Source: a virus
Length of the DNA stretch: 21,751 nucleotides
Strand: one strand, 5' to 3'
Virus record (IMG/VR): IMGVR_UViG_3300049811_000337
Span: 1-21,751 of that record
The notes beneath the pieces are model-generated. The model was given only the letters and a program-made list of their open reading frames with translations, was not told the DNA's origin and searched no databases. Position numbers and translations under genes: made by a program. Of the stretch, positions 5,529 through 21,527 are shown one piece after another (position 1 is the first letter of the stretch; every line of letters starts with the position of its first letter).

Positions 5529-6632
5529 ATGGCACTTACCAATTTTGCTGCTCTGACGAACGAGCAGAAGACCATCTGGTCGCGCGACGTGTGGAAGCAT
5601 GCGCGCAACATGTCGTTCATCAACAAGTTCGCTGGCAGCGGCTCGAACGCCGTCGTGCAGCGCATCACCGACCTCACCAAGGACGAGAAGGGCACCCGCG
5701 CCGTAATGACGCTGGTCCTCGACCTCGACGGCGACGGTGTGGCGGGTGACAACACGCTGGAAGGCAACGAAGAGGCCCTGCGGTCGAGCGACTGCGTGAT
5801 CCGCCTGGATCAGCTGCGTCACGCGAACCGCCACAAGGGTCGCCTCGCCGACCAGAAGAGCGTGGTCAACTTCCGCGAGAACAGCCGCGACGTGCTGGCC
5901 TACTGGCTGGCCGACCGCATCGACCAGCTCGCGTTCCTCACGCTCTCGGGCGTGTCGTACGCGTTCAAGCCGGACGGTTCGACTCGCACGGGCTCGGCGC
6001 TGACCAGCCTCGAGTTCGCGGCCGACGTGACCGCGGGCACCAGCAACCGCGCGTTCCGCTGGGACAGCGCCACGGGCCTGCAGGCTCAGGCGACCGCGTC
6101 CATCGGCACGGAGGACACGCCGTCCTACGCCGCGCTCGTCGCGCTCAAGGCGAAGGCCAAGACGCTGTACATGCGTGGCCTGCGCGGCCCGGGCAACCAG
6201 GAATACTTCCACGTGTTCCTGCACCCGCTGGCCATGGCCAAGCTCAAGCTCGACACCGACTACAAGACGGCCGTCATCAACGCTGCCCAGCGCAGCGCCA
6301 GCGACAACCCGTTCTTCTCGGGCGAGGGCGTCACGGTCGACGGCCTGATCATCCACGAGTTCCGCTACGTGTACAACACGACCGGCCTCGCGGGTGGCTC
6401 GAAGTGGGGCGGCGGCACGGTGGATGGCTGTCGCGCTCTCTTCCTCGGCGCCCAGGCGCTCGGCATGGCCGACATCGGCTCGCCGTACTGGGTCGAGAAG
6501 GAGTTCGACTACGACAACCAGCCCGGTATCTCGGTGGGCAAGATGTTCGGGTTCAAGAAGCCGGTCTTCCTGAACCAGTACACGGGCCAGGCCGAGGACT
6601 ACGGCGTCATCACCTGCGACTTCGCGATGTAA
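5529..6632 (+). CDS. Major capsid protein, N4-gp56 family
   Basis: Principal shell protein (HK97-type fold known or inferred for the family), 367 residues, of usual length for the N4-gp56 group. The whole N-terminal half shows the familiar pattern: a start of MALTNFAALTNEQKTIWSRD, then FINKFAGSGSNAVVQRIT, the acidic DLDGDGVAGDNTLEGNEEAL segment, QLRHANRHKGRLADQKSVV (from residue 95) and DVLAYWLADRIDQLAF (121-136). The C-terminal half contains the FHVFLHPLAMAKLK strand and a final GMADIGSPYWVEKEFDYDNQ motif, also usual for the family. The start ATG has a GGAGGG site ten bases upstream, held in a hairpin loop. A GC-rich hairpin follows seven bases after the stop. Assignment is secure. Confidence 0.96.
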   Translation: MALTNFAALTNEQKTIWSRDVWKHARNMSFINKFAGSGSNAVVQRITDLTKDEKGTRAVMTLVLDLDGDGVAGDNTLEGNEEALRSSDCVIRLDQLRHANRHKGRLADQKSVVNFRENSRDVLAYWLADRIDQLAFLTLSGVSYAFKPDGSTRTGSALTSLEFAADVTAGTSNRAFRWDSATGLQAQATASIGTEDTPSYAALVALKAKAKTLYMRGLRGPGNQEYFHVFLHPLAMAKLKLDTDYKTAVINAAQRSASDNPFFSGEGVTVDGLIIHEFRYVYNTTGLAGGSKWGGGTVDGCRALFLGAQALGMADIGSPYWVEKEFDYDNQPGISVGKMFGFKKPVFLNQYTGQAEDYGVITCDFAM

Positions 6633-7145: not shown

Positions 7146-7583
7146 ATGGCCTACGTCCTATGCCTGATGGACATGCACGTCGTGTCCCTGACCGGGCACT
7201 CGCTGGCGCTGCAGAACAAGCTGGCGCCGCAGCAGGTTCCCGATGTGGTAGTGCCCGAACTCCTCGCGCGCGGCTGCGTGCAGTGCGACGTGGAGGGCAA
7301 CGTGCTGGTGAACGGCACGCCGCTCGCGGTTCGGCGCATGACGCTCGACGTGCCGCAGGTGAGCGTCGGCAACGACGCCGAGAAACGCATGGAGACGCCG
7401 ATGGTGATCTCCGACGAGATGAAGATCGACGCGGCCGTCGCCGAGGCGATTGCCGCCAAGGACCAGTCGCTGATGGACAGGCGCCTCGGCATCCCGAAGG
7501 TGATTGCCATCAGCGAGAAGGTCCAGTTCCGCGTCTCGAAGACGCAGATTCTGGCGTCGTGTAAGCGACTGGGGTACTTCTGA
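7146..7583 (+). CDS. Conserved-type phage hypothetical protein of the neck module
   Basis: A 145-residue protein of unknown function. The N-terminal half has a short beta-like pattern with SLTGHSLALQNKLAPQQVPD followed by PELLARGCVQCDVEG, a layout (a small 'Gly-His-Ser ... Val-Pro ... Arg-Gly-Cys' domain) that I have seen in small proteins next to head-tail genes of podoviruses, though I cannot name a family. The C-terminal half (from about residue 75) is charged and helical (AEKRMETPMVISDEMKIDAAVAEAIA). Three cysteines lie at 6, 44 and 47, the last two as a CVQC pair. The ATG has a strong AGGAGGG. Its stop overlaps the next start (TGATG), so it is translated together with the adaptor. A head-completion or tail-assembly role is a guess from position. 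Confidence 0.75.
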   Translation: MAYVLCLMDMHVVSLTGHSLALQNKLAPQQVPDVVVPELLARGCVQCDVEGNVLVNGTPLAVRRMTLDVPQVSVGNDAEKRMETPMVISDEMKIDAAVAEAIAAKDQSLMDRRLGIPKVIAISEKVQFRVSKTQILASCKRLGYF

Positions 7584-8446
7584 TGGCGGCAGCCAGTGCA
7601 GTGATCAACCGGGCGCGCGACGCGCTGCTCGACCTGAGCTCGACTGGCTACCGCTGGACCGACGCCGAGCTGCTGCGCTGGTTGTCCGACGCGCAGCGCG
7701 AAGTGGTGACAGCCTTCCCCGAGGCCAACACCCAGACCACGGCCATCACGCCCGACGCCGCCGACGTGCGCATTGACATGCGCCTGCGTGCTGGCTCCGG
7801 CGTCACGCCCATCGCGATCCTGCGCTTCGCATCGCAGCAGGACCCGCGCACCGGCGTCGAGGGGCAGGAGCTCAAGCTGGTCGAGAAGATGGTGCTTGAC
7901 GCGCTCGACCCGGGCTGGATCGGCTACGTGCCGACCACACTCGCCGTCTCGGTGACGGCGGGCAGCTTCGTGGTCGGCGCCGTGTACGCCATCAGGACGG
8001 TGGGCACCACCGACTTCACGCTGATCGGCGCGGCCAACAACACCGTCGGCACCGTGTTCACGGCGACCGGCGCTGGCACGGGCACGGGCACGGCGACCAG
8101 GGCCGACGCGACGCCCTACTACAAGGCCGTGGTGATGGACCCGAAGGACCCGCTGTCCTTCTGGCTGTACCCGCGCGCCAACCCCGCGCGCAGGGTCTAC
8201 GTCACCTTCACCGCGGTGCCCGCGGAGCTGGTGGCGACGACCGACACGCTCGCGCTCCCCGACCAGTACATCCCGATGCTGGTCGACTACGTCGTCTACC
8301 GCGCGCTCGGCAAGGACTCGGTCTACACCGGCGCGCCGAACAAGTCGGCCGAGTTCTACCAGGCGTTCGGGCAGAAGCTCGCGGTCGCCTCCGGGCGCCG
8401 CACCGAACTCGCCCCCACGGCGGCCCGCGCGCCCGATGAGCACTGA
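7583..8446 (+). CDS. Head-tail adaptor protein, DUF6682-like, with inserted domain
   Basis: Probable neck adaptor that binds below the portal. The N-terminal ~50 residues (VINRARDALLDLSSTGYRW, then TDAELLRWLSDAQREVV) match the helical start of DUF6682-type phage proteins, and the later segment MDPKDPLSFWLYPRA and the final helices (LPDQYIPMLVDYVVYRALGKD) fit the same family. Between them, residues ~120-172 form a Gly/Thr-rich block containing GAVYAIRTVGTTDFTLIGA and VGTVFTATGAGTGTGTA. This motif occurs as a small separate module in many tail proteins and looks inserted here, making the protein (287 residues) longer than I would expect for the family. The ATG overlaps the preceding stop; two bases separate the stop from the next ATG. 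Confidence 0.78.
   Translation: MAAASAVINRARDALLDLSSTGYRWTDAELLRWLSDAQREVVTAFPEANTQTTAITPDAADVRIDMRLRAGSGVTPIAILRFASQQDPRTGVEGQELKLVEKMVLDALDPGWIGYVPTTLAVSVTAGSFVVGAVYAIRTVGTTDFTLIGAANNTVGTVFTATGAGTGTGTATRADATPYYKAVVMDPKDPLSFWLYPRANPARRVYVTFTAVPAELVATTDTLALPDQYIPMLVDYVVYRALGKDSVYTGAPNKSAEFYQAFGQKLAVASGRRTELAPTAARAPDEH
7940..8098 (+). other. Inserted 'VGTTDFTLIGA' module inside the adaptor gene
   Basis: Codes for residues ~120-172 of the adaptor. Its Gly/Thr/Ala-rich beta pattern differs from the helical flanks and interrupts a segment (WIGYVP ... YYKAVVMDPKDPL) that is continuous in the family as I know it. Boundaries are approximate. Confidence 0.55.
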
Positions 8447-8448
8447 CC

Positions 8449-9195
8449 ATGTACTTCAAGTCGCTGCTGGCTGACATCCGCCTCGTGTGCCCCGGCATGC
8501 CGGAGCCGTGGCAGTACCGGTTCCTGACGCGGTCGCTGCAGGTGTTCCTCTCGGACACCGAGGTCTGGCAGGAGTGGACACAGTACGCGTGGGACTTCAC
8601 GGCCGCGAGCGGCGGCCTCTACGAGATCCCGAACGCCAAGTACAACCCAACCGGTCCGGTGGACCCGTACCCGTTCGTCCGCGCCTCGCGCGTGCTGCGC
8701 GTGAAGTGGATGCCGACCGGCGAGAACATCGCGAAGGTCACCGCCGACGAGCTCGACCGCTGCGAACAGGACTGGATGACCCAGCGCAGCAAGGAGCCGC
8801 GGGCGTGGGCCCCGGCCCCGAGCGCCTTCGGCGAGCACGGCGGCTACCGCGTGCGCCTCTACCCGCACCCGGCGGACGTGGTCGACGACACGGCGGCGGC
8901 ACTCAGATTCCTCGTCGCACACACGGTCACCGAGACCGAGACGCCCGACGACGTGCTGGCCCTCGAAACGGCAGTCGGCGGCAACGTGGCCGACTGGCTG
9001 TTCCGCCGCTACCGCGAGACGGTCGTGGCTGGCACGCTGGCGCGGGCACTCGCGGTCCCGGGAGTCGACTGGTCCAACCCGCAGCTCGCCATGCAGTACG
9101 GCGCAGCGTTCACCTTCGGCGTCGATCGCGCTCGCTCCGAGACACAGGCCGGCCAGACCACGTCGCACGTTGTGGTGGCGTATGGCGGCTATTGA
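8449..9195 (+). CDS. Probable head-tail connector / tail tube-like protein
   Basis: A 248-residue soluble protein between the adaptor and nozzle genes. It opens with a helical segment (MPEPWQYRFLTRSLQVFLSD), then a beta-rich middle (WDFTAASGGLYEIPNA, RASRVLRVKWMPTG), a region RVRLYPHPADVVDD, and a helical C-terminal part (VADWLFRRYRETVVAGTLAR) ending RARSETQAGQTTSH. Alternating strands with a later helix pair resemble the T7 gp11-type / P22 gp4-type connector proteins in outline, but no diagnostic motif is seen. The ATG is two bases after the adaptor stop. Its 3' end overlaps the next gene by 14 bases. It is most likely the second ring of the neck; a minor tail protein is the alternative. Confidence 0.7.
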   Translation: MYFKSLLADIRLVCPGMPEPWQYRFLTRSLQVFLSDTEVWQEWTQYAWDFTAASGGLYEIPNAKYNPTGPVDPYPFVRASRVLRVKWMPTGENIAKVTADELDRCEQDWMTQRSKEPRAWAPAPSAFGEHGGYRVRLYPHPADVVDDTAAALRFLVAHTVTETETPDDVLALETAVGGNVADWLFRRYRETVVAGTLARALAVPGVDWSNPQLAMQYGAAFTFGVDRARSETQAGQTTSHVVVAYGGY

Positions 9196-11233
9196 CATCG
9201 GGAAGTTCGGCCCGGTTTTCTTCGACGGCCGCCGCATTGATCTCCCGCTCGACGCTTCACTCGGCATCGCCAACGTCCGACTGGGCAGCGAGCGGCTCGA
9301 GCCCGTAGCGCCGCCGGCGATCGTCGCGGGCGTGTGGACGCCGTACGCGCCGCCGATCACACGCCGTCCGTACATCTACCGCACCGGCGCGCACTCGAAC
9401 GATCAGGCGCGCATGTGGGCGTTCGATGCCTCGGCCGACATCGAGCGCACGCCGATCCGCGGCGATGACGAGGACCGCCTCGTCCTCACCGACTGGCAGT
9501 ACGACGACCAGGACCCGCTGGCGCTGTCGTCCACGGCGCCGAAGACGGTCTCGAAGACGATTGCCGCCGCGACGCCGGTGGGTGCGTTCGAGCCCGACGA
9601 CTTCAACTACCTCGGCGTGCCCGCCCCGACGGTGGCCCCGGTGCTGACCGGCGTGACGCCGAGCACGGCCATCGTCATCACCGAGCTCGCCGTCGGCGAG
9701 ATCATGCTATATCGCACCTTCGCCGACATCCCGAACTGGCGCTCGTCCGGCGCCCCGGGCGACGGCGACTCGCAGATCCAGCTGCCGAGCGGCGAGAACG
9801 GCGAGCACATCTTCGGCGGGTTCATCCCCGGCCAGCGGATGGTGGTCACCGAGATCGTCGACTCCAGCACCGTGCGCATCGCGGCGCCCAACGCAGACCG
9901 CGCCATCGGCGATCTGAACGTCTCCTCCAGCTGGCGCTTCACGCAGTCTGACGCGGCCACGCAGATTATCTGCACGTGGCGGCTGCCCAAGATCGCCACG
10001 GCTACCATCAAGGACCACAAGCTGCAGGTCAACGATGTGCTGCGCGTCACGCAGGTGACCGTCAACCCATCGTGGTTCTCTGGCACGACGCTGAACCTCG
10101 CACCGTCCAGCGGGCTGGAGCGGCTGGCGACGCCGACCACCGGCACCATCGAGTTCATCGGCAAGGTGTCGTGCGTGGTCGAGCCGCCCGGCCTCCCGGT
10201 CGTCTACGACAACGATGGCGTGCTGATCGCCACCGCGGCGCCGAGCCCGCTGGCATGGAACATCAGCTCGTTCGCCAGCGGCGGCACCGACTCGCGCACG
10301 GTCAGCGCGATCCCCTACGGCGGCCTCGGACCGTTCACGTACTCGTGGGCATGGACCGCCGGTGGCACCGGGCTGTCGCTGGCCGGCACGACCACCCCGA
10401 CCGTGACGGTGTCGCGTGTCTATCTGCAGGGCGACAACGCCTCGTACGGCGGCACCCTGCGGGTCACCATCACCGACTCACTCTCCACAGTCGTCACGGC
10501 TGACGTGCCGGTCGAGGTCGTGGTGACCCCCGCGGACCCGGGCGCAGGCGGCGGCGGCGGTGGCGGCGGCGAACCCGCCCTCGCCGCGACGTTGTCTTCG
10601 TCGGCCCTGACGGGCAGCGCCAGCTCCATCTCGGCTGGTGGCAACCTCGACGCGGCCTGCACCGTCACGGCGGTCGGCGGGCGCACGCCATACAGCTACA
10701 ACTGGTCGTTCGCCGCCGGCGGCACCGGGCTGACTATCCTCAATGGCACCACCTCGGCGGCGACGGTGCGCAGGGCGTACGCGCAGAACGAGGCGAACGT
10801 CTACACCGGCACGCTGCGCTGCACGGTGACGGACGCCAACAACAACAGCGTGTCGGCGGACGCTTCCGTGACGCTAACCGTCACGGGGCCAATGACCATC
10901 ACGCCGTCACCGGACGGCTCGTTCTACGACGTCAAGGACGCCTCGAAGCTGCCCGGCGGCAACGGCGTGTTGACCGACTACGTCGAGCTGGCCGTCACCG
11001 GCGGCGTCGGCCCGTTCACCTACACGTGGTCGTTCACCGACCCGCTGTACGCGTTCAACAAGAACCTGGTGATGGTCGTGAGCCCGAACAACCGCTGCAC
11101 GGTGTCTCGCAGCTTCGACGGCGACTCGCAGAAGAAGCGCTTCCTGTTCACGGTCCAGTGCGTCGTGACCGACACGGACAACGGGCGCACCTCGACGCTG
11201 TTCTTCCCCGGCGACTACTTGAAGCAGGTGTAA
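9182..11233 (+). CDS. Tail nozzle-like protein, N-terminal part, with three Ig-like domains
   Basis: 683 residues from ATG 9182; an upstream in-frame TTG at 9170 is less likely. Residues 1-340 match the front half of nozzle/stabiliser-type tail proteins: a start IDIGKFGPVFFDGRRIDLPL, a region RPYIYRTGA, LTDWQYDDQDPL, and the marker NYLGVPAPTVAP (LGVPAP at 144-149). Residues ~355-683 are three tandem Ig/PKD-like beta domains, each with a related core: GPFTYSW (W389), TPYSYNW (W508), GPFTYTW (W616). Domains one and two are joined by a poly-Gly linker (about 457-464). In relatives as I know them, the LGVPAP segment is followed in the same polypeptide by a fibronectin-like segment YVYT-x-GEEGPPSP; here that segment begins the next gene, in the same frame, after a single TAA. 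Ig-like domains on tail proteins usually give weak carbohydrate or surface contacts. Confidence 0.75.
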   Translation: MAAIDIGKFGPVFFDGRRIDLPLDASLGIANVRLGSERLEPVAPPAIVAGVWTPYAPPITRRPYIYRTGAHSNDQARMWAFDASADIERTPIRGDDEDRLVLTDWQYDDQDPLALSSTAPKTVSKTIAAATPVGAFEPDDFNYLGVPAPTVAPVLTGVTPSTAIVITELAVGEIMLYRTFADIPNWRSSGAPGDGDSQIQLPSGENGEHIFGGFIPGQRMVVTEIVDSSTVRIAAPNADRAIGDLNVSSSWRFTQSDAATQIICTWRLPKIATATIKDHKLQVNDVLRVTQVTVNPSWFSGTTLNLAPSSGLERLATPTTGTIEFIGKVSCVVEPPGLPVVYDNDGVLIATAAPSPLAWNISSFASGGTDSRTVSAIPYGGLGPFTYSWAWTAGGTGLSLAGTTTPTVTVSRVYLQGDNASYGGTLRVTITDSLSTVVTADVPVEVVVTPADPGAGGGGGGGGEPALAATLSSSALTGSASSISAGGNLDAACTVTAVGGRTPYSYNWSFAAGGTGLTILNGTTSAATVRRAYAQNEANVYTGTLRCTVTDANNNSVSADASVTLTVTGPMTITPSPDGSFYDVKDASKLPGGNGVLTDYVELAVTGGVGPFTYTWSFTDPLYAFNKNLVMVVSPNNRCTVSRSFDGDSQKKRFLFTVQCVVTDTDNGRTSTLFFPGDYLKQV

Positions 11234-11236
11234 CGC

Positions 11237-12730
11237 GTGGCTGACGAAGTCCTCAGTACCCGCTCCTACGTCTACACCTTCGTCAACAAGTTCGGCGAGG
11301 AGGGCCCGCCGTCGCCCGCATCGCGCGAGATCACGGTGGGGCAGAACGCGGGCGTGGTCATCTCGCTGGTGCACGCCGAGGTCGCCACGCGCTTTGGCAT
11401 CGTCTCCAAGCGCCTGTACCGCGCCGTCTCCGGCGAGGAGTCGGTCGGCTTCCGGCTCGTGGCAGAGGTGCCGCTGGCGACCACCACCATCGCTGACACC
11501 AAGCGCGACGACGAGCTCGGCGAAGAGCTGCCGTCGGCTGACTGGGACATGCCGCCGCAGGACCTCGTCGGGATCGTCTCGCTGTCCGGCGGCATGCTGG
11601 CCGGATTCCGCCGTGGCACCGGCATCCTGTGCATCACGTACCCGGACCAAGTGCACGCGTGGCCGATCAAGTACCGCATCCGCTTCGACTTCCCGATCGT
11701 CGGCATCATGCCGCTCGACATGGGCTTCGTCGTGTTTACAGAGGCTGAGACGTACTTCGTCGCCGGCACCGTGCCCGAGCAGTTCCAGGTGCGCAACTGC
11801 CCGAGCGCCCCGCGCTGCATCGGCCGTAAGAGCATTGCCTCGACCGGGCCGGTCGGCTACTACGCTTCCGCGCTCGGCCCGGTGCAGACCGACGGCATGA
11901 CGTTCCGCTACCTGCTGGAGACGACCAACTCGACGACGGATCCGACCCGCGTCTACGCGGGGCACATCAACGAGACCCTGGCCACCGACACGGCGGCGTG
12001 GGGCACGGCTGGCGCCGAGGACGTGCGCCGTGAGGCTGCGAGCTTCGCTGCGGTCACCGACGGGCGGCTGTTCCAGTCGTTCTTCTACGACGCGACGCCT
12101 ACTGGCGGGGATCCCGGTACGGCATGGACGTTCTCGATGTACGAGTACGACCTCGTATCACGTTCGTACCCGTTCCTGTGCGGCCGCTGGGAGTGGGTGG
12201 CCGACATCACTGACGATGCCGACCAGGAGTTGAAGGCCACGCACGTCGGCTTCGACAAGCTCACGCGCACGCTGTACACGCTGCGCGGGGCGTACCCGAC
12301 CGCGAACCTGCAACTGGCGCGCCTGTTCCCGCGTGCCTCAGCCACTGAGTTACCGAGCAACGCAGTGTGGAACAGCAAGGAGTTCACGCTGCAACGCCCG
12401 TTCCACCCGGGCGTCATGTACGTGGATTTCAGTTACTCGGGGCCGACCTCGGGCGGACCGGAGCTGCTCACCAAGGTGCGCGTCGAAGTGATCGCGCTGA
12501 TCGGTGACGACGAGCACGTGGTCGCCGACGAGTCGTTCACGCACGACCCGGGGCAGGGCAGCCTCGCCTCGCCGCACAACTGGGTACGCCGCGTGCGGGT
12601 CGTGGCCGGGCCGCGCTCCCACCGCATCAAGCTGCGCGTCACGCTGCCGTCCGGGTATCCCGTCAGCGTGCGCCGCGTCATCGTCGCCGAGAACATGCAG
12701 GAGCTGATCGAGAAGCTCCCGAGCGCCTAG
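11237..12730 (+). CDS. Tail nozzle-like protein, C-terminal part
   Basis: 497 residues from GTG 11237, two codons after the preceding TAA and in the same reading frame. It begins with a fibronectin-III-like motif (RSYVYTFVNKFGEEGPPSPA), then RLYRAVSGEE and FRLVAEVPLATTTIADT, and the nozzle-type features DELGEELPSADWDMPP, a beta-propeller-like section (GGMLAGFRRGTGILCITYP, HAWPIKYRIRFDFPIVG, VVFTEAETYFVAG) and strands typical of tail nozzle proteins. The C-terminal third is beta-rich and likely contacts the fibre or the tail tip. No good Shine-Dalgarno precedes the GTG, so expression probably depends on translation of the preceding gene (reinitiation) or on stop readthrough. The stop TAG touches the fibre ATG. 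Function is assigned from family pattern, confident as a structural tail protein. Confidence 0.8.
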   Translation: MADEVLSTRSYVYTFVNKFGEEGPPSPASREITVGQNAGVVISLVHAEVATRFGIVSKRLYRAVSGEESVGFRLVAEVPLATTTIADTKRDDELGEELPSADWDMPPQDLVGIVSLSGGMLAGFRRGTGILCITYPDQVHAWPIKYRIRFDFPIVGIMPLDMGFVVFTEAETYFVAGTVPEQFQVRNCPSAPRCIGRKSIASTGPVGYYASALGPVQTDGMTFRYLLETTNSTTDPTRVYAGHINETLATDTAAWGTAGAEDVRREAASFAAVTDGRLFQSFFYDATPTGGDPGTAWTFSMYEYDLVSRSYPFLCGRWEWVADITDDADQELKATHVGFDKLTRTLYTLRGAYPTANLQLARLFPRASATELPSNAVWNSKEFTLQRPFHPGVMYVDFSYSGPTSGGPELLTKVRVEVIALIGDDEHVVADESFTHDPGQGSLASPHNWVRRVRVVAGPRSHRIKLRVTLPSGYPVSVRRVIVAENMQELIEKLPSA

Positions 12731-17215: not shown

Positions 17216-17220
17216 AAGGA
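17216..17220 (+). promoter_or_regulatory. Shine-Dalgarno deciding the start of the next gene
   Basis: AAGGA ends at 17220. It overlaps the first base of an in-frame ATG at 17220 but lies eight bases before the ATG at 17229, which is therefore the better start. Confidence 0.55.
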
Positions 17221-17228
17221 TGGGTCCA

Positions 17229-18029
17229 ATGCCCGGCGACACCGACAAGATTGCTAAGCGGATGGACCGCGCGGACGCGTTCAACTGGACGCCGGAAGCG
17301 CAGCTCGAACGCAAGCTCATGGAGAGCCTCGGGCTCCGCTCGACCAAGGCGGAGCGCAAGGAGAAGAAGCTCAGCAAGCGCAACAAGCGCGCCTACGACC
17401 AGGCGTTCGGCGAGTTCAACTCGGGAGTCGACGGGCAGTCATCGGCCGAGAAGGCCATGCTGGAGCGCTCGCTGTCCCTGCTCAAGGGCACGGGGCCGTT
17501 GCGCGACCTGCAGAACGACGCCATGGACGCCGCCGAGGATCCGGCTGGGCGCATCAACCAAGCGATCGGCCGCGGCCGCCAGGACGTGCACGCGAAGTTT
17601 GCCGAGGGCGGCACGCCGCGCTCCATCGGCGACGCCGTCGGGCAGAACCTGGCGCGCGCCCGGGCGCTGACTCGGGTCGGCATGGCCGGGGACGAGGCCG
17701 TCAAGGCGCAGGCCCTCAAGGACCGCATCGCCATCGCAGGCTTCGGGCGTGACCGCGCGAACCTCGCGATGGGGCAGGGCCAGATCGGCGTCGACATGGC
17801 GGCCAAGCGCCGCGCGGCGGCCGATGACCGCAACGCCGTTACTGGCGCGGCCTACTCGAACCTCGGTGGCGCCGTGCTCGGCGCGGGCCTCAACTACGGC
17901 ATCAACGCGTGGCAGAACCGACTGTCGCCCGTGAAGGTCACGGCGCAGCCGATGCTGGCGCCGATCGACATCACGGCGCAGCGGATCCCGACTCCCGCGC
18001 CTGCTGCCCCCGTCACCGGGCCACGCTGA
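17229..18029 (+). CDS. Putative internal virion / ejection protein
   Basis: 266 residues, predominantly helical and basic in its first third (RKLMESLGLRSTKAERKEKK). The centre holds charged helices (LARARALTRVGMAGDEAVKA, FGRDRANLAMGQGQIG). A small-residue, weakly hydrophobic segment GAAYSNLGGAVLGAGLNYG follows near the C-terminus, ahead of a Pro-rich tail. This layout (long helices, then an Ala/Gly-rich segment capable of lying in a membrane) resembles the T7 gp14 / P22 gp7 type of small ejection protein. It is the first of four consecutive genes that look like internal proteins and lies just after the fibre gene. The start at ATG 17229 is chosen for its AAGGA. The stop overlaps the next ATG by one base. 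Sequence similarity to a named family cannot be claimed. Confidence 0.68.
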   Translation: MPGDTDKIAKRMDRADAFNWTPEAQLERKLMESLGLRSTKAERKEKKLSKRNKRAYDQAFGEFNSGVDGQSSAEKAMLERSLSLLKGTGPLRDLQNDAMDAAEDPAGRINQAIGRGRQDVHAKFAEGGTPRSIGDAVGQNLARARALTRVGMAGDEAVKAQALKDRIAIAGFGRDRANLAMGQGQIGVDMAAKRRAAADDRNAVTGAAYSNLGGAVLGAGLNYGINAWQNRLSPVKVTAQPMLAPIDITAQRIPTPAPAAPVTGPR

Positions 18030-19063
18030 TGAAAGTCTCGATCCCTGGATACGAGATGCCGCCCCTGACGGCCGCTGACGCCCCGAAGGGCAAGAAGGCG
18101 AAGAAGGCAGCCAAGAAGGAGGCGAAGCGCGTCGCGCTGGCCAACCGCGTCGCGGCCGCCACCAACGTCAAGGACATCAAAAGCGCCACGCTCGACCAGC
18201 TGCTGCCGCAGGTGACCACCGACGAGCTGGTGTTCGACGGCAAGAAGGGCCCGCAGTTCACCACTGCCGCGCGCTTCATGGAGCTGGCCAACAGCCCGCA
18301 GCGCCTACAGGAGCGCTACAACGAAGCGCTGTGGGCGGACTCGACCGGCAACCCGGACAGTCGCTTCGGCCAGTTCGAGGAGCGGCTGCTCGCCGAGGGC
18401 AAGCCGTCCCCGGCCGCGCGCGGACTCGACCGCGTGATCGCGGCGCAGCGCGCCGGGCAGGCAACCAACATCTCCGAAGGCATCGCGCAGCGCCAGATCC
18501 GCGCCACGGGCATCCGCCCGGACTCGGACGAGGCGGCGTCGATGAAGCGCCAGTTCGGCATCGCCCGCGTGCTCAACCGCGTCGATGCGCAGAACGCCGC
18601 CGACAAGGCCATGGACGCGCGCCGCGACCTCGTGCGCGACTACTCGTTCGACGCCGAGGGCAACGCGCAGAACGCCATCGGCGGCGCCATCGGCTCGGCG
18701 GCCGCATCGGACCTCGACCGCAAGTTGCGCAAGCGCGGCCAGAACGCCTCCGACGACGCTGGTGTGGCCGGGATGGTCGGGCAGGGCGTCGGCCTCGCGC
18801 TGTCGGCGTTCGCGCTGTCGCACTCCTCGCTCAAGGAGGAGGTCACGGCAGTCGGCGACGGCGAGATCCTCGAAGGCCTGCGCCAGCTCGAAATCAATCG
18901 CTGGAAGTACCGCGGCGAGGACACGGTCCACGTCGGGCCGATGGCCGAGGACTTCCACCGCATCTTCGGCGTCGGCGACGGCGTCACGCTGCAGCTCGTC
19001 GACGTGATGGGCGTGGCGCTCGGCGCGCTCAAGGAACTGGCCCACGCGGCCGACAGGAAGTAA
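18029..19063 (+). CDS. Helical virion protein with C-terminal Peptidase S74 chaperone domain
   Basis: 344 residues from ATG 18029, which overlaps the preceding TGA; the same frame is open further upstream but with no better start. Residues 1-260 are basic then helical and Ala-rich (KGKKAKKAAKKEAKRVALAN at 17-36; later GNAQNAIGGAIGSAAAS and MVGQGVGLALSAFALS). From about 264 to the end is an S74 intramolecular chaperone domain: SHSSLKEEV, then LEINRWKYRG, VHVGPMAEDFHRIFG and VDVMGVALGALKELA. In endosialidase-type domains the catalytic pair is Ser and a Lys five residues later (SDxRLK); here S264 and K269 occupy those places, so self-cleavage may be retained. S74 domains help trimeric beta-helix fibres fold, so finding one on a mainly helical protein amid ejection-like genes is unusual. 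Confidence 0.75.
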   Translation: MKVSIPGYEMPPLTAADAPKGKKAKKAAKKEAKRVALANRVAAATNVKDIKSATLDQLLPQVTTDELVFDGKKGPQFTTAARFMELANSPQRLQERYNEALWADSTGNPDSRFGQFEERLLAEGKPSPAARGLDRVIAAQRAGQATNISEGIAQRQIRATGIRPDSDEAASMKRQFGIARVLNRVDAQNAADKAMDARRDLVRDYSFDAEGNAQNAIGGAIGSAAASDLDRKLRKRGQNASDDAGVAGMVGQGVGLALSAFALSHSSLKEEVTAVGDGEILEGLRQLEINRWKYRGEDTVHVGPMAEDFHRIFGVGDGVTLQLVDVMGVALGALKELAHAADRK

Positions 19064-19067
19064 CCGC

Positions 19068-21527
19068 ATGGCTACGTTCGACCCGCAGTCCTTCGGCTCC
19101 GGCCTGATGCAGGGCTTCTCGTTCGTCGAGGGCATCCGCCAGACGCGTGAGAAGATCGCGCTCGCCAAGCGCGAGGAAGAGCGGCTGATCAAGGATCGCG
19201 AGGACGAGGAGAACCTCAAGCGCCGCACGCTGCGCGCCTCGGCCTACGACCAGCACCGCGCGAGCGGCAAGCGCTTCTCCGACCTGTCGGACGAGGACGC
19301 CATCACGCTGTTCAACGAGCGCAAGGACGAGGTCGGCGACGACGGCACCAAGGTGACCGGCGTGCGCCGCAACGCCGACGGCTCGATCACGCCCATCGTG
19401 AGCGGCCGCGACAAGTACGGCCGCAAGTTCGAAGGCAAGCCCATGACGGTCGACGGCACGCCCGTGACCGAGGGCGGCAAGGAGATCTCCTTCTCCGCTG
19501 ACGACGCCGACAACATGTTCGACAACTGGGCCGCCCAGTACAACCCGAACTTCTCGGCTCGCGCGACCAAGAAGGCTGAGATCGACCGGCTGCAGAAACT
19601 CGAGGACCAGGACGTCGAGGACAACGCCATCACGGCGCAGGGGATCCTCGCCCGGCGCGGCCGAGTCACTGAGTCACCGAGTCCCCAAGCTCCGGGTGCG
19701 CAGACGCCCAGTGGCTCGGCGCCTGTGGACCGCGCGGAGATCCTGCGTCGCCAGCGCGACGCGGAGAGCCGCAGCCGTCACCGCAACGCCGACGGTTCCT
19801 TGGTGACTTCGAAGGTAGGCGCGCAGGGCGTCTCGCAGGTCATGCCGGCCACCGGCGTCGACCCGGGCTTCGGCGTCAAGCCGCTGCAGAACGACAGCGA
19901 AGCGGAGTACGTGCGCTTCCAAGACGACTACATGGCGGCGATGGAGTCGCGCTACGGCGGCGACATGGTGAAGGCGCTCGCGGCCTACAACGCCGGGCCG
20001 GGTAACGTCGATGACGCGCTGCTCGCGGCCGACGAGGCCGGGCAGCCCGAGAACTGGATGCGGTTCCTCCCGAAGCCGGAGGAGACCATCCCGTACGTCC
20101 AGAAGATTCTCGGCCCAGAATCCGGCGCGGCGCAGCTCGCCAGCACCGATCCGCAGCAGGCCATCCAGCCGCCGCCGGCGGCCGCTCCGGCTCCGGCTGC
20201 GGCAGCAGCGCGCGTGTCCCCCACGGCTCCTGCCGGTGCGGCTCCTGCGAGGCTCGGCGGCGACCCGAGGGCGGAACTGAACCAGCAGATCCTCGACTCC
20301 CCGGTCGGGCAGGTGAGCCAGGGCCTGACGCGCGTCGGCCAGTACATGATCGACAAGCCCTCCGAGCTGGTGCAGAAGGGCGTCACCACGGCCAAGTGGA
20401 ACACGGTCAAGTACGAGGACGTGGTCGCGAAGCCCGGCAAGTACCTCGACTCGTGGAACAACGAGCACGGCGACGTGCCGCCGGAAGTGCGCGCCGAGGT
20501 GAGCAAGAACCTCGTGCGTGCCTCGCGCGATCGCATCACGACGCTGGCCGAGGTGGCCAAGGGCAAGGGCCCGGAGGCACAGGCCGCGCGGCGCGAGCTC
20601 ACGACACTGTCGCGGCAGCTCACCGAGATGTCGTACAGCCTCTCTGCAGCCGCTGGCCTGCCGCCCAAGAGCAAGCCCGGCCCCGAGCTCGCCGAGAAGT
20701 TGAAGGACCAGCCCGTGCCGCCGCCGCCGAAGGACGACGGTGCGCAGAAGGCCGACCTGAGCGCGCTGCGCCGGTCGAGCGAGCGCAACGCCAACAGTGA
20801 CGCGCCCGAGCTCTCGCAGCGCGAGATCAACGCCGCATCGCGCATGCTGGCGCGCGGCAAGATCACGGCCGAGCAGTTCGAGCGCTATGTCCTGACGGGC
20901 TACTTCCAGAAGGGCGAGATCGAACAGCTCGACCCGACGAAGTCGCTGATCGAGCGGCTCCCCGACGGCAGCTTCCGGCTGGTCTACGACGGCGCGCCCG
21001 CGGCCATGGCCGAGGCTGCCGCCAAGGCCAAGAAGGGCAGCGGCGACGGTGACAACAAGGTGCACAACCGCAACTACGGGATCCTCGACGGGATCGTGAC
21101 CGAGCGCTACAAGGACACGAAGAACTCCAAGCTCACGGCCGAGCGCCGCGTGCAGCTGCTCAGCGCCGTCTACGACAACGCCGCGGTGCTGGCCGGGCTC
21201 GGCTACGACGTCTGGGACCACGAGACGGGCACGTTCTCGCTGGAGAACCTCAGCGAGATCCAGCTGCATCAGCTCTCCAACACGCTGCTCGACAACATCG
21301 AGAAGAACGAGGAGCCGATGAGCTGGTTCAAGACCGTCTTCGGTGCTGACCAGTCGAAGCCCGGCATGACCGAAGGGCTCAACCAGCAGGTGCCGCGCTT
21401 CGACGAGGGCAAGTTCCAAGGCACCATGGAGAACATCCGGCGCGCGGCGGCCGCAGGGAACCCGAAGGCGCAGGCCGCGCTGGCGCGCGGCGAAGACTTC
21501 ATCCGGCAGCAGTTGGCGGGCAAATGA
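19068..21527 (+). CDS. Virion-associated lytic transglycosylase, ejection-type protein
   Basis: 819 residues. The N-terminal ~60 residues form a charged coil (IRQTREKIALAKREEERLI). At about 225-350 is a transglycosylase SLT-like domain: catalytic-type Glu in DAESR (E233), then SKVGAQGVSQVMPAT, and the signature ALAAYNAGPG (AAYNAGPG at 305-312). This fold cleaves the glycan strand of peptidoglycan between MurNAc and GlcNAc, and in podovirus internal proteins it opens the cell wall for DNA entry (as in the lysozyme-like region of T7 gp16). A Pro/Ala-rich linker (about 365-400) and a long helical C-terminal part (about 440-819) follow, without an obvious second enzyme. The ATG is four bases after the S74 gene and preceded by AGGAAG. 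Its stop overlaps the next ATG (ATGA). Confidence 0.88.
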   Translation: MATFDPQSFGSGLMQGFSFVEGIRQTREKIALAKREEERLIKDREDEENLKRRTLRASAYDQHRASGKRFSDLSDEDAITLFNERKDEVGDDGTKVTGVRRNADGSITPIVSGRDKYGRKFEGKPMTVDGTPVTEGGKEISFSADDADNMFDNWAAQYNPNFSARATKKAEIDRLQKLEDQDVEDNAITAQGILARRGRVTESPSPQAPGAQTPSGSAPVDRAEILRRQRDAESRSRHRNADGSLVTSKVGAQGVSQVMPATGVDPGFGVKPLQNDSEAEYVRFQDDYMAAMESRYGGDMVKALAAYNAGPGNVDDALLAADEAGQPENWMRFLPKPEETIPYVQKILGPESGAAQLASTDPQQAIQPPPAAAPAPAAAAARVSPTAPAGAAPARLGGDPRAELNQQILDSPVGQVSQGLTRVGQYMIDKPSELVQKGVTTAKWNTVKYEDVVAKPGKYLDSWNNEHGDVPPEVRAEVSKNLVRASRDRITTLAEVAKGKGPEAQAARRELTTLSRQLTEMSYSLSAAAGLPPKSKPGPELAEKLKDQPVPPPPKDDGAQKADLSALRRSSERNANSDAPELSQREINAASRMLARGKITAEQFERYVLTGYFQKGEIEQLDPTKSLIERLPDGSFRLVYDGAPAAMAEAAAKAKKGSGDGDNKVHNRNYGILDGIVTERYKDTKNSKLTAERRVQLLSAVYDNAAVLAGLGYDVWDHETGTFSLENLSEIQLHQLSNTLLDNIEKNEEPMSWFKTVFGADQSKPGMTEGLNQQVPRFDEGKFQGTMENIRRAAAAGNPKAQAALARGEDFIRQQLAGK

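Follow-up and report, generated by a model that had tools for sequence, protein, structure and literature searches.

The tail nozzle of an uncultured short-tailed phage is encoded as two adjacent genes that meet at an array of Ig-like domains

The source record, an IMG/VR virus sequence of 21,751 bases from an uncultured short-tailed phage, was analysed at its full length and is referred to here as the window. Two of its genes, gene A (9182–11233) and gene B (11237–12730), lie in a common frame with only the spacer TAA CGC between them, the junction reading AAG CAG GTG TAA CGC GTG GCT. A first-pass annotation had described the pair as one tail nozzle protein in two pieces with an Ig-like array at the break, and this core reading agrees with the results presented below. 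The coordinates, the shared frame, the TAA (11231–11233), the single CGC codon and the GTG (11237) were all as it had given them. The front-half motif LGVPAP lies at residues 144–149 of gene A (9611–9628), the opening motif YVYTFVNKFGEEGPPSP begins at residue 11 of gene B, and the array consists of three domains (residues about 357–683 of gene A) that reach the stop, so that the break falls exactly between the array and the nozzle domain that follows it. The features of the locus are as follows.

9182–11233, + strand: gene A, front nozzle piece, 683 residues; N-terminal nozzle part, insert domain and three Ig-like domains; stop TAA
9182–9646, + strand: N-terminal nozzle part, residues 1 to about 155, with LGVPAP at its end (46-row alignment, AF2, phrog_511)
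9659–10201, + strand: insert domain 1, residues about 160–340 (alignment)
10250–10525, + strand: Ig-like domain 1, PKD/cadherin type (Pfam K319L-like_PKD and SprB, marginal)
10583–10882, + strand: Ig-like domain 2, preceded by a poly-Gly linker (AF2 pLDDT mostly 80–93)
10889–11230, + strand: Ig-like domain 3, reaching the stop codon (GPFTYTWSF...CVVTDTDNG motifs in common with domains 1 and 2)
11226–11230, + strand: Shine-Dalgarno sequence AGGTG, within the end of gene A and 6 nt before the GTG of gene B
11231–11233, + strand: TAA that terminates gene A, lying in the frame of gene B
11237–12730, + strand: gene B, back nozzle piece, 497 residues; start GTG, stop TAG, the ATG of the next gene following directly after the TAG
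11267–11545, + strand: FN3/Ig-like nozzle domain YVYTFV..FGEEGPPSP, the first folded domain of gene B (motif invariant in homologues)
11546–12727, + strand: remaining nozzle (AF2; Foldseek to the nozzles of GP4, P22, SU10 and T7)

Residues 7–219 of gene B matched positions 462–672 of phrog_511, annotated as an internal virion protein, with an E-value of 2e-54. When the first 163 residues of gene A were used as the query, residues 21–158 matched positions 339–450 of the same profile at E 0.16, a weak match if taken alone; the two genes match directly adjacent, consecutive stretches of the profile. In an alignment of 49 homologous rows gene A aligns at the front, with LGVPAP in nearly invariant columns, and G145, P147 and P149 are nearly invariant in the alignment with the N-termini of 46 rows. 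A profile built from gene B and eight phage homologues (A1) matched the GP4 portal-tail protein (8jov_A) with an E-value of 9e-168. AF2 modelling of the fused pair, in which a residue was put in place of the stop, gave a sensible nozzle core whose closest PDB match was the GP4 nozzle (8jov; Foldseek E 1e-17, TMt 0.52), further Foldseek matches being nozzle or tail proteins of Pa223, P22, Pan3, Sf6, SU10 and T7. The TM-scores are modest because the array is poorly modelled. A platform and propeller fold was predicted, with pLDDT values mostly between 57 and 93 in the N-terminal part of gene A and of 80–96 over much of gene B, including about 80–96 in its FN3/Ig-like nozzle domain, the fold of which was assigned by inspection. 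Insert domain 1 and array domain 3 were poorly modelled by AF2.

The order of genes in the window (portal at 1556, major capsid protein (MCP) at 5529, SU10_adaptor at 7583, a structural gene at 8449, then gene A) fits the position of a nozzle gene, and the same order of portal, capsid, adaptor, structural gene and nozzle is seen in L270, L277 and L267. Overall, genes A and B encode, in colinear order, the front and the back part of a single nozzle of GP4/SU10 type (phrog_511). Several other features were observed around these modules. In L138:698–2142 the window adaptor protein was matched twice in tandem. Further downstream in the window, the ORFs 17220–18029 and 17909–19063 share about 120 bases, read in different frames, and the latter carries Peptidase_S74 (endosialidase chaperone) at its end; 19068–21527 encodes a structural protein with an SLT transglycosylase domain that is probably an ejected lysin.

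In the SU10 nozzle the platform is built from N- and C-terminal parts, the seven-bladed propeller is closed by strands of both chain ends, and blades 2 and 3 are separated by four Ig-like nozzle domains (PMC9509320). The window nozzle resembles SU10 gp17 (7z4b, 7z47, 7z4f) in its predicted platform and propeller and in its Ig-like nozzle domains. By analogy, the N-terminal part of gene A would provide platform strands and the first propeller blades, and the region 11546–12727 the remaining blades and the C-terminal part of the platform. SU10 gp17, however, holds its four Ig-like domains inside one chain of about 910 residues, whereas in the window the first chain terminates where the array does and a second one takes over at the following nozzle domain; in the alignment, the window array is placed between the N-terminal part and the FN3-like domain, as compared with blades 2 and 3 in SU10. 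The best profile and fold matches were GP4 (8jov chain A) and phrog_511 members from short-tailed phages, among them Bcep22-like and 933W-like ones. These share with the window the motif order LGVPAP/LAVPRP followed by YVYTFV..GEEG, and the phrog_511 profile spans both halves, but they are single chains of about 530–615 residues, while the window nozzle comprises two chains and additionally has, where these meet, one insert domain and three Ig-like domains. As the first-pass annotation had proposed, related phages carry both halves in one polypeptide, a situation found in isolate phages and in 222 distinct single-chain rows, and all solved nozzle proteins known to us are single chains. One chain is thus usual, yet we do not treat it as defining the nozzle fold; the window phage and ten other distinct phages found here encode the nozzle in more than one piece.

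Two of the three array domains were predicted to form beta-sandwiches resembling cadherin repeats (AF2, Foldseek). For domain 1 the pLDDT was mostly 65–85 and Foldseek matched cadherin repeats with an E-value of about 1e-7. Domain 2 matched phrog_2973 (Hoc-like head decoration) with an E-value of 1e-8 and is 47% identical to the terminal domain of an FN3-repeat protein in another phage, L001. Domain 3 is complete according to a by-eye alignment with domain 2, in a region where AF2 performed poorly (pLDDT 29–46). Antibody light chains were among the sequence-search matches (E 1e-4). The search for close sequence relatives of gene A gave only two unrelated proteins that have the PKD-like module in common with it. 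This module (window 10583–10882, L001:4908–5252, L002:4890–5219) terminates FN3-repeat proteins in unrelated phages and, judged by its sequence, is a mobile Ig-like module.

The region between LGVPAP and YVYTFV was compared among homologues. Isolate-phage homologues have merely a short linker there. Insert domain 1 is common to nine relatives (L027, L079, L277, L114, L267, L275, L281, L046 and L138), all of which are unbroken at the position of the window break, referred to below as site 1. In such relatives a linker comes after the insert domain, an example being SSELEDRSYVYT, and the start of gene B, VADEVLSTRSYVYT, aligns with it; in the window phage three Ig-like domains lie between the insert domain and the start of gene B. 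Since the insert-domain relatives are unbroken and their linker aligns with the start of gene B, array and break seem to have been added to a chain that was ancestrally single. As a separate observation, L021, L124, L019 and L234 carry extra tandem domains that resemble the FN3-like YVYT nozzle domain, placed ahead of it within single chains, comparable to the multiple nozzle domains of SU10.

Homologues were collected from IMG/VR and GTDB genomes with degenerate DNA patterns, which yielded 243 distinct rows whose 5' end is complete. Split frequencies in this set are biased upward, since several of the patterns were chosen to enrich for possible starts; one non-enriched pattern taken by itself gave a single split among about 112 complete loci. 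The number of residues ahead of the YVYT motif was 12–23 in six of the 243 rows and at least 100 in all others. The junctions of L172 and L210 are identical, hence the six short-start rows represent five phages (L024, L215, L247, L260 and L172/L210), which form one clade (SH-aLRT 99). In all five, gene 1 consists of the nozzle front followed by three SWM/Ig-like repeats, assigned as SWM_repeat by Pfam in three phages and by inspection in the other two. Boundary and layout (front and three Ig-like repeats, stop, gene 2) are therefore like those of the window. The five phages differ from it in having SWM_repeat rather than PKD-like domains, in lacking insert domain 1, in belonging to another lineage and in that gene 2 is out of the frame of gene 1 in every case, making fusion by readthrough impossible. 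In L215 the genes could not be joined even by one frameshift, because a stop between them closes the frame of gene 2. Gene 2 is preceded by a strong Shine-Dalgarno sequence in three of the five. Homologues that are consistently two proteins with the same boundary, which the first-pass annotation had named as evidence against a split of one protein, thus occur in a minority clade and not as a general rule, indicating that the split is real and recurrent, not universal. Inserts of at least 300 residues at site 1 are present in all split cases compared with two of the 222 single chains (L118 and L266). Of the latter, L266:4343–7858 is a single chain of 1172 residues in which repeats, BNR-like on visual inspection, are inserted at or close to each of the two break sites seen in other phages.

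We recognised no split nozzle in an isolate phage; the front half of L260 matched only N-termini of Rhizobium and Vibrio phages. No description of split nozzles was found in the literature searched (open-licence papers). Two candidate splits were discarded. Vibrio phage 1F273_PE002 (L346) looked like two features and proved to be a single gene, and L146:334–2377 has a frameshift in mid-domain, without an array, that is probably an assembly error or decay. L346 and Aeromonas phage phiARM81mr (L005) have a reverse-transcriptase gene a short distance upstream of the nozzle gene, an arrangement reminiscent of diversity-generating retroelements, with an Avd note beside the reverse transcriptase in L346.

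The nearest relatives of the window phage by capsid share 63–65% identity in the MCP and about 45% in the portal where complete, but only about 24–28% in adaptor and nozzle, from which the tail module (7583–12730) appears, at the level of sequence, to be far more diverged or exchanged than the capsid (5529–6632). No close sequence relative of gene B was found in IMG/VR or GTDB genomes, and the window nozzle lies on a long branch with 27% identity to homologues. The capsid-nearest relatives have nozzles unbroken at site 1. Among these relatives, L270, L271 and L277 have the nozzle broken further on, at a second loop at profile position 262/263 (site 2), and L027 is broken at the same position (L270:13290–18796, L271:5687–9954, L277:10881–15289, L027:2664–7453). 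In L270, L271 and L277 long arrays of Ig-like and/or propeller-like type close the first piece; they show as repeat patterns in a region where Pfam is nearly blank. The stop-start overlap TAATG comes next, and then about 145 residues that complete the nozzle. Elsewhere on the tree, L261:1–3908 has a slightly later break, after bacterial surface Ig-like domains and with TGATG, and its second piece begins with propeller-like repeats that precede the nozzle C-terminus. Placement of L261 in one clade with the other site-2 splits was rejected (AU p 2e-71), so this split arose independently. On the nozzle tree, a sister-group relationship of the window and the SWM clade was not formally rejected (AU p 0.196) and the two may share one origin. 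The splits therefore have at least three origins, or four if the window is counted apart from the SWM clade.

The first-pass annotation had allowed either two separate pieces or readthrough, and stated that the GTG of gene B has no clear Shine-Dalgarno sequence. That statement did not hold, as AGGTG lies 6 nt upstream and its duplex with the 16S tail (−8.7 kcal/mol) ranks third among 14 gene starts examined; only 5% of 660 ATG/GTG/TTG triplets on the strand have as good a duplex. With this start in view, we consider it unlikely that the TAA is leaky, yielding mostly gene A alone and a minority of a full 1182-residue nozzle with internal Ig-like domains. Such a product is consistent with the shared frame and the single codon from stop to next start, with the existence of single-chain nozzles that have long site-1 inserts (L118, L266) and with the sensible AF2 nozzle core of the fused chain. 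The window phage is the only in-frame pair among the split cases found, and its frame alone is compatible with readthrough. The well-formed Shine-Dalgarno sequence and GTG directly after the stop argue against a leaky stop, however, as does the use of the same boundary off-frame in five phages. Furthermore, fusion by frameshift was rejected in L215 and L261, whose genes could be joined neither by readthrough nor by a single frameshift. TAA is also the ordinary stop of three other genes of the window phage, those ending at 1555 (terminase), 6632 (capsid) and 19063 (17909–19063), and an alternative genetic code with TAA as a sense codon was rejected for this reason. UAA followed by CGC is not a leaky stop context known to us. 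Separate chains are thus favoured over readthrough. A comparison with Rfam gave no matches.

It is also decidedly unlikely that the stop is no feature of the population, whether it stems from faulty sequencing or from a nonsense mutation recently acquired by a single-chain gene. The TAA is seen in one assembly of a single metagenomic record, the window nozzle having no close relative in the collections searched, and one other locus, L146, does resemble a plain frameshift error. Against this, the break lies at a domain boundary, in a linker where an independent clade also breaks, and the Shine-Dalgarno sequence and start codon are in place. Finally, gene A might have left the nozzle to serve as an Ig-like decoration or fibre protein in its own right, with a reduced nozzle formed by gene B only, in keeping with the weak match of the N-terminal part alone to the family and with the decoration-type array (phrog_2973), but this is very improbable given that gene B begins past the first half of the platform and blades 1 and 2 of SU10 and by analogy should not close a propeller alone, that the conserved positions including LGVPAP are kept, and that the N-terminal part is well conserved in the SWM clade (131–138 bits).

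Unrelated phages have broken the nozzle alike, which suggests that the split is a real evolved design and looks like neither a sequencing error nor a read-through stop. The explanation that we regard as quite probable is a translationally coupled two-chain nozzle, the chains co-assembling and carrying an Ig-like array with a free end. The layout, the colinear homology, the domain order, the start signal and the recurrence in other phages are observed directly; from these we infer co-assembly, stoichiometry, and the position and role of the array. The ancestor would have been a single chain in which a platform was combined with a beta-propeller, the latter interrupted by an FN3/Ig-like nozzle domain. 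Just ahead of the nozzle domain, the window lineage may have gained an insert domain, followed along the chain by three Ig-like domains, and the sequence TAA CGC GTG, a stop and a fresh start served by a Shine-Dalgarno sequence of its own, may have cut the chain where the array ends. Translational coupling on one message would give about equal amounts of both chains. Since propeller and platform need strands from both, A and B would fold together, presumably as a hexamer of heterodimers below the adaptor; if the SU10 plan holds, gene B alone cannot close the propeller and the two must meet. Tethered at one end, the array could stand out from the tail as an arm for decoration, adhesion or tail extension, and would be spared looping back into the propeller. 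Programmed frameshifting adds Ig-like domains to phage structural proteins, which are likewise carried at the C-terminus of a virion protein. The arrangement here differs in that it involves no recoding but two ordinary ORFs, the second with its own start, and in that the downstream gene is the nozzle core, not an optional extension.

On balance, we favour the more general view that short-tailed phages have repeatedly cut the nozzle gene at surface loops after Ig-like or propeller arrays, giving obligate two-chain nozzles with arms free at one end, and that modular arms can in this way be added to a closed structural protein without recoding. For annotation, such pairs should not be labelled frameshifts or pseudogenes. 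The nozzle protein is among the core components of a short tail. If the splits are indeed repeated and independent, the propeller through which DNA exits can be built from two polypeptides, and the split genes show a route by which modular Ig-like arms may be added to the nozzle.
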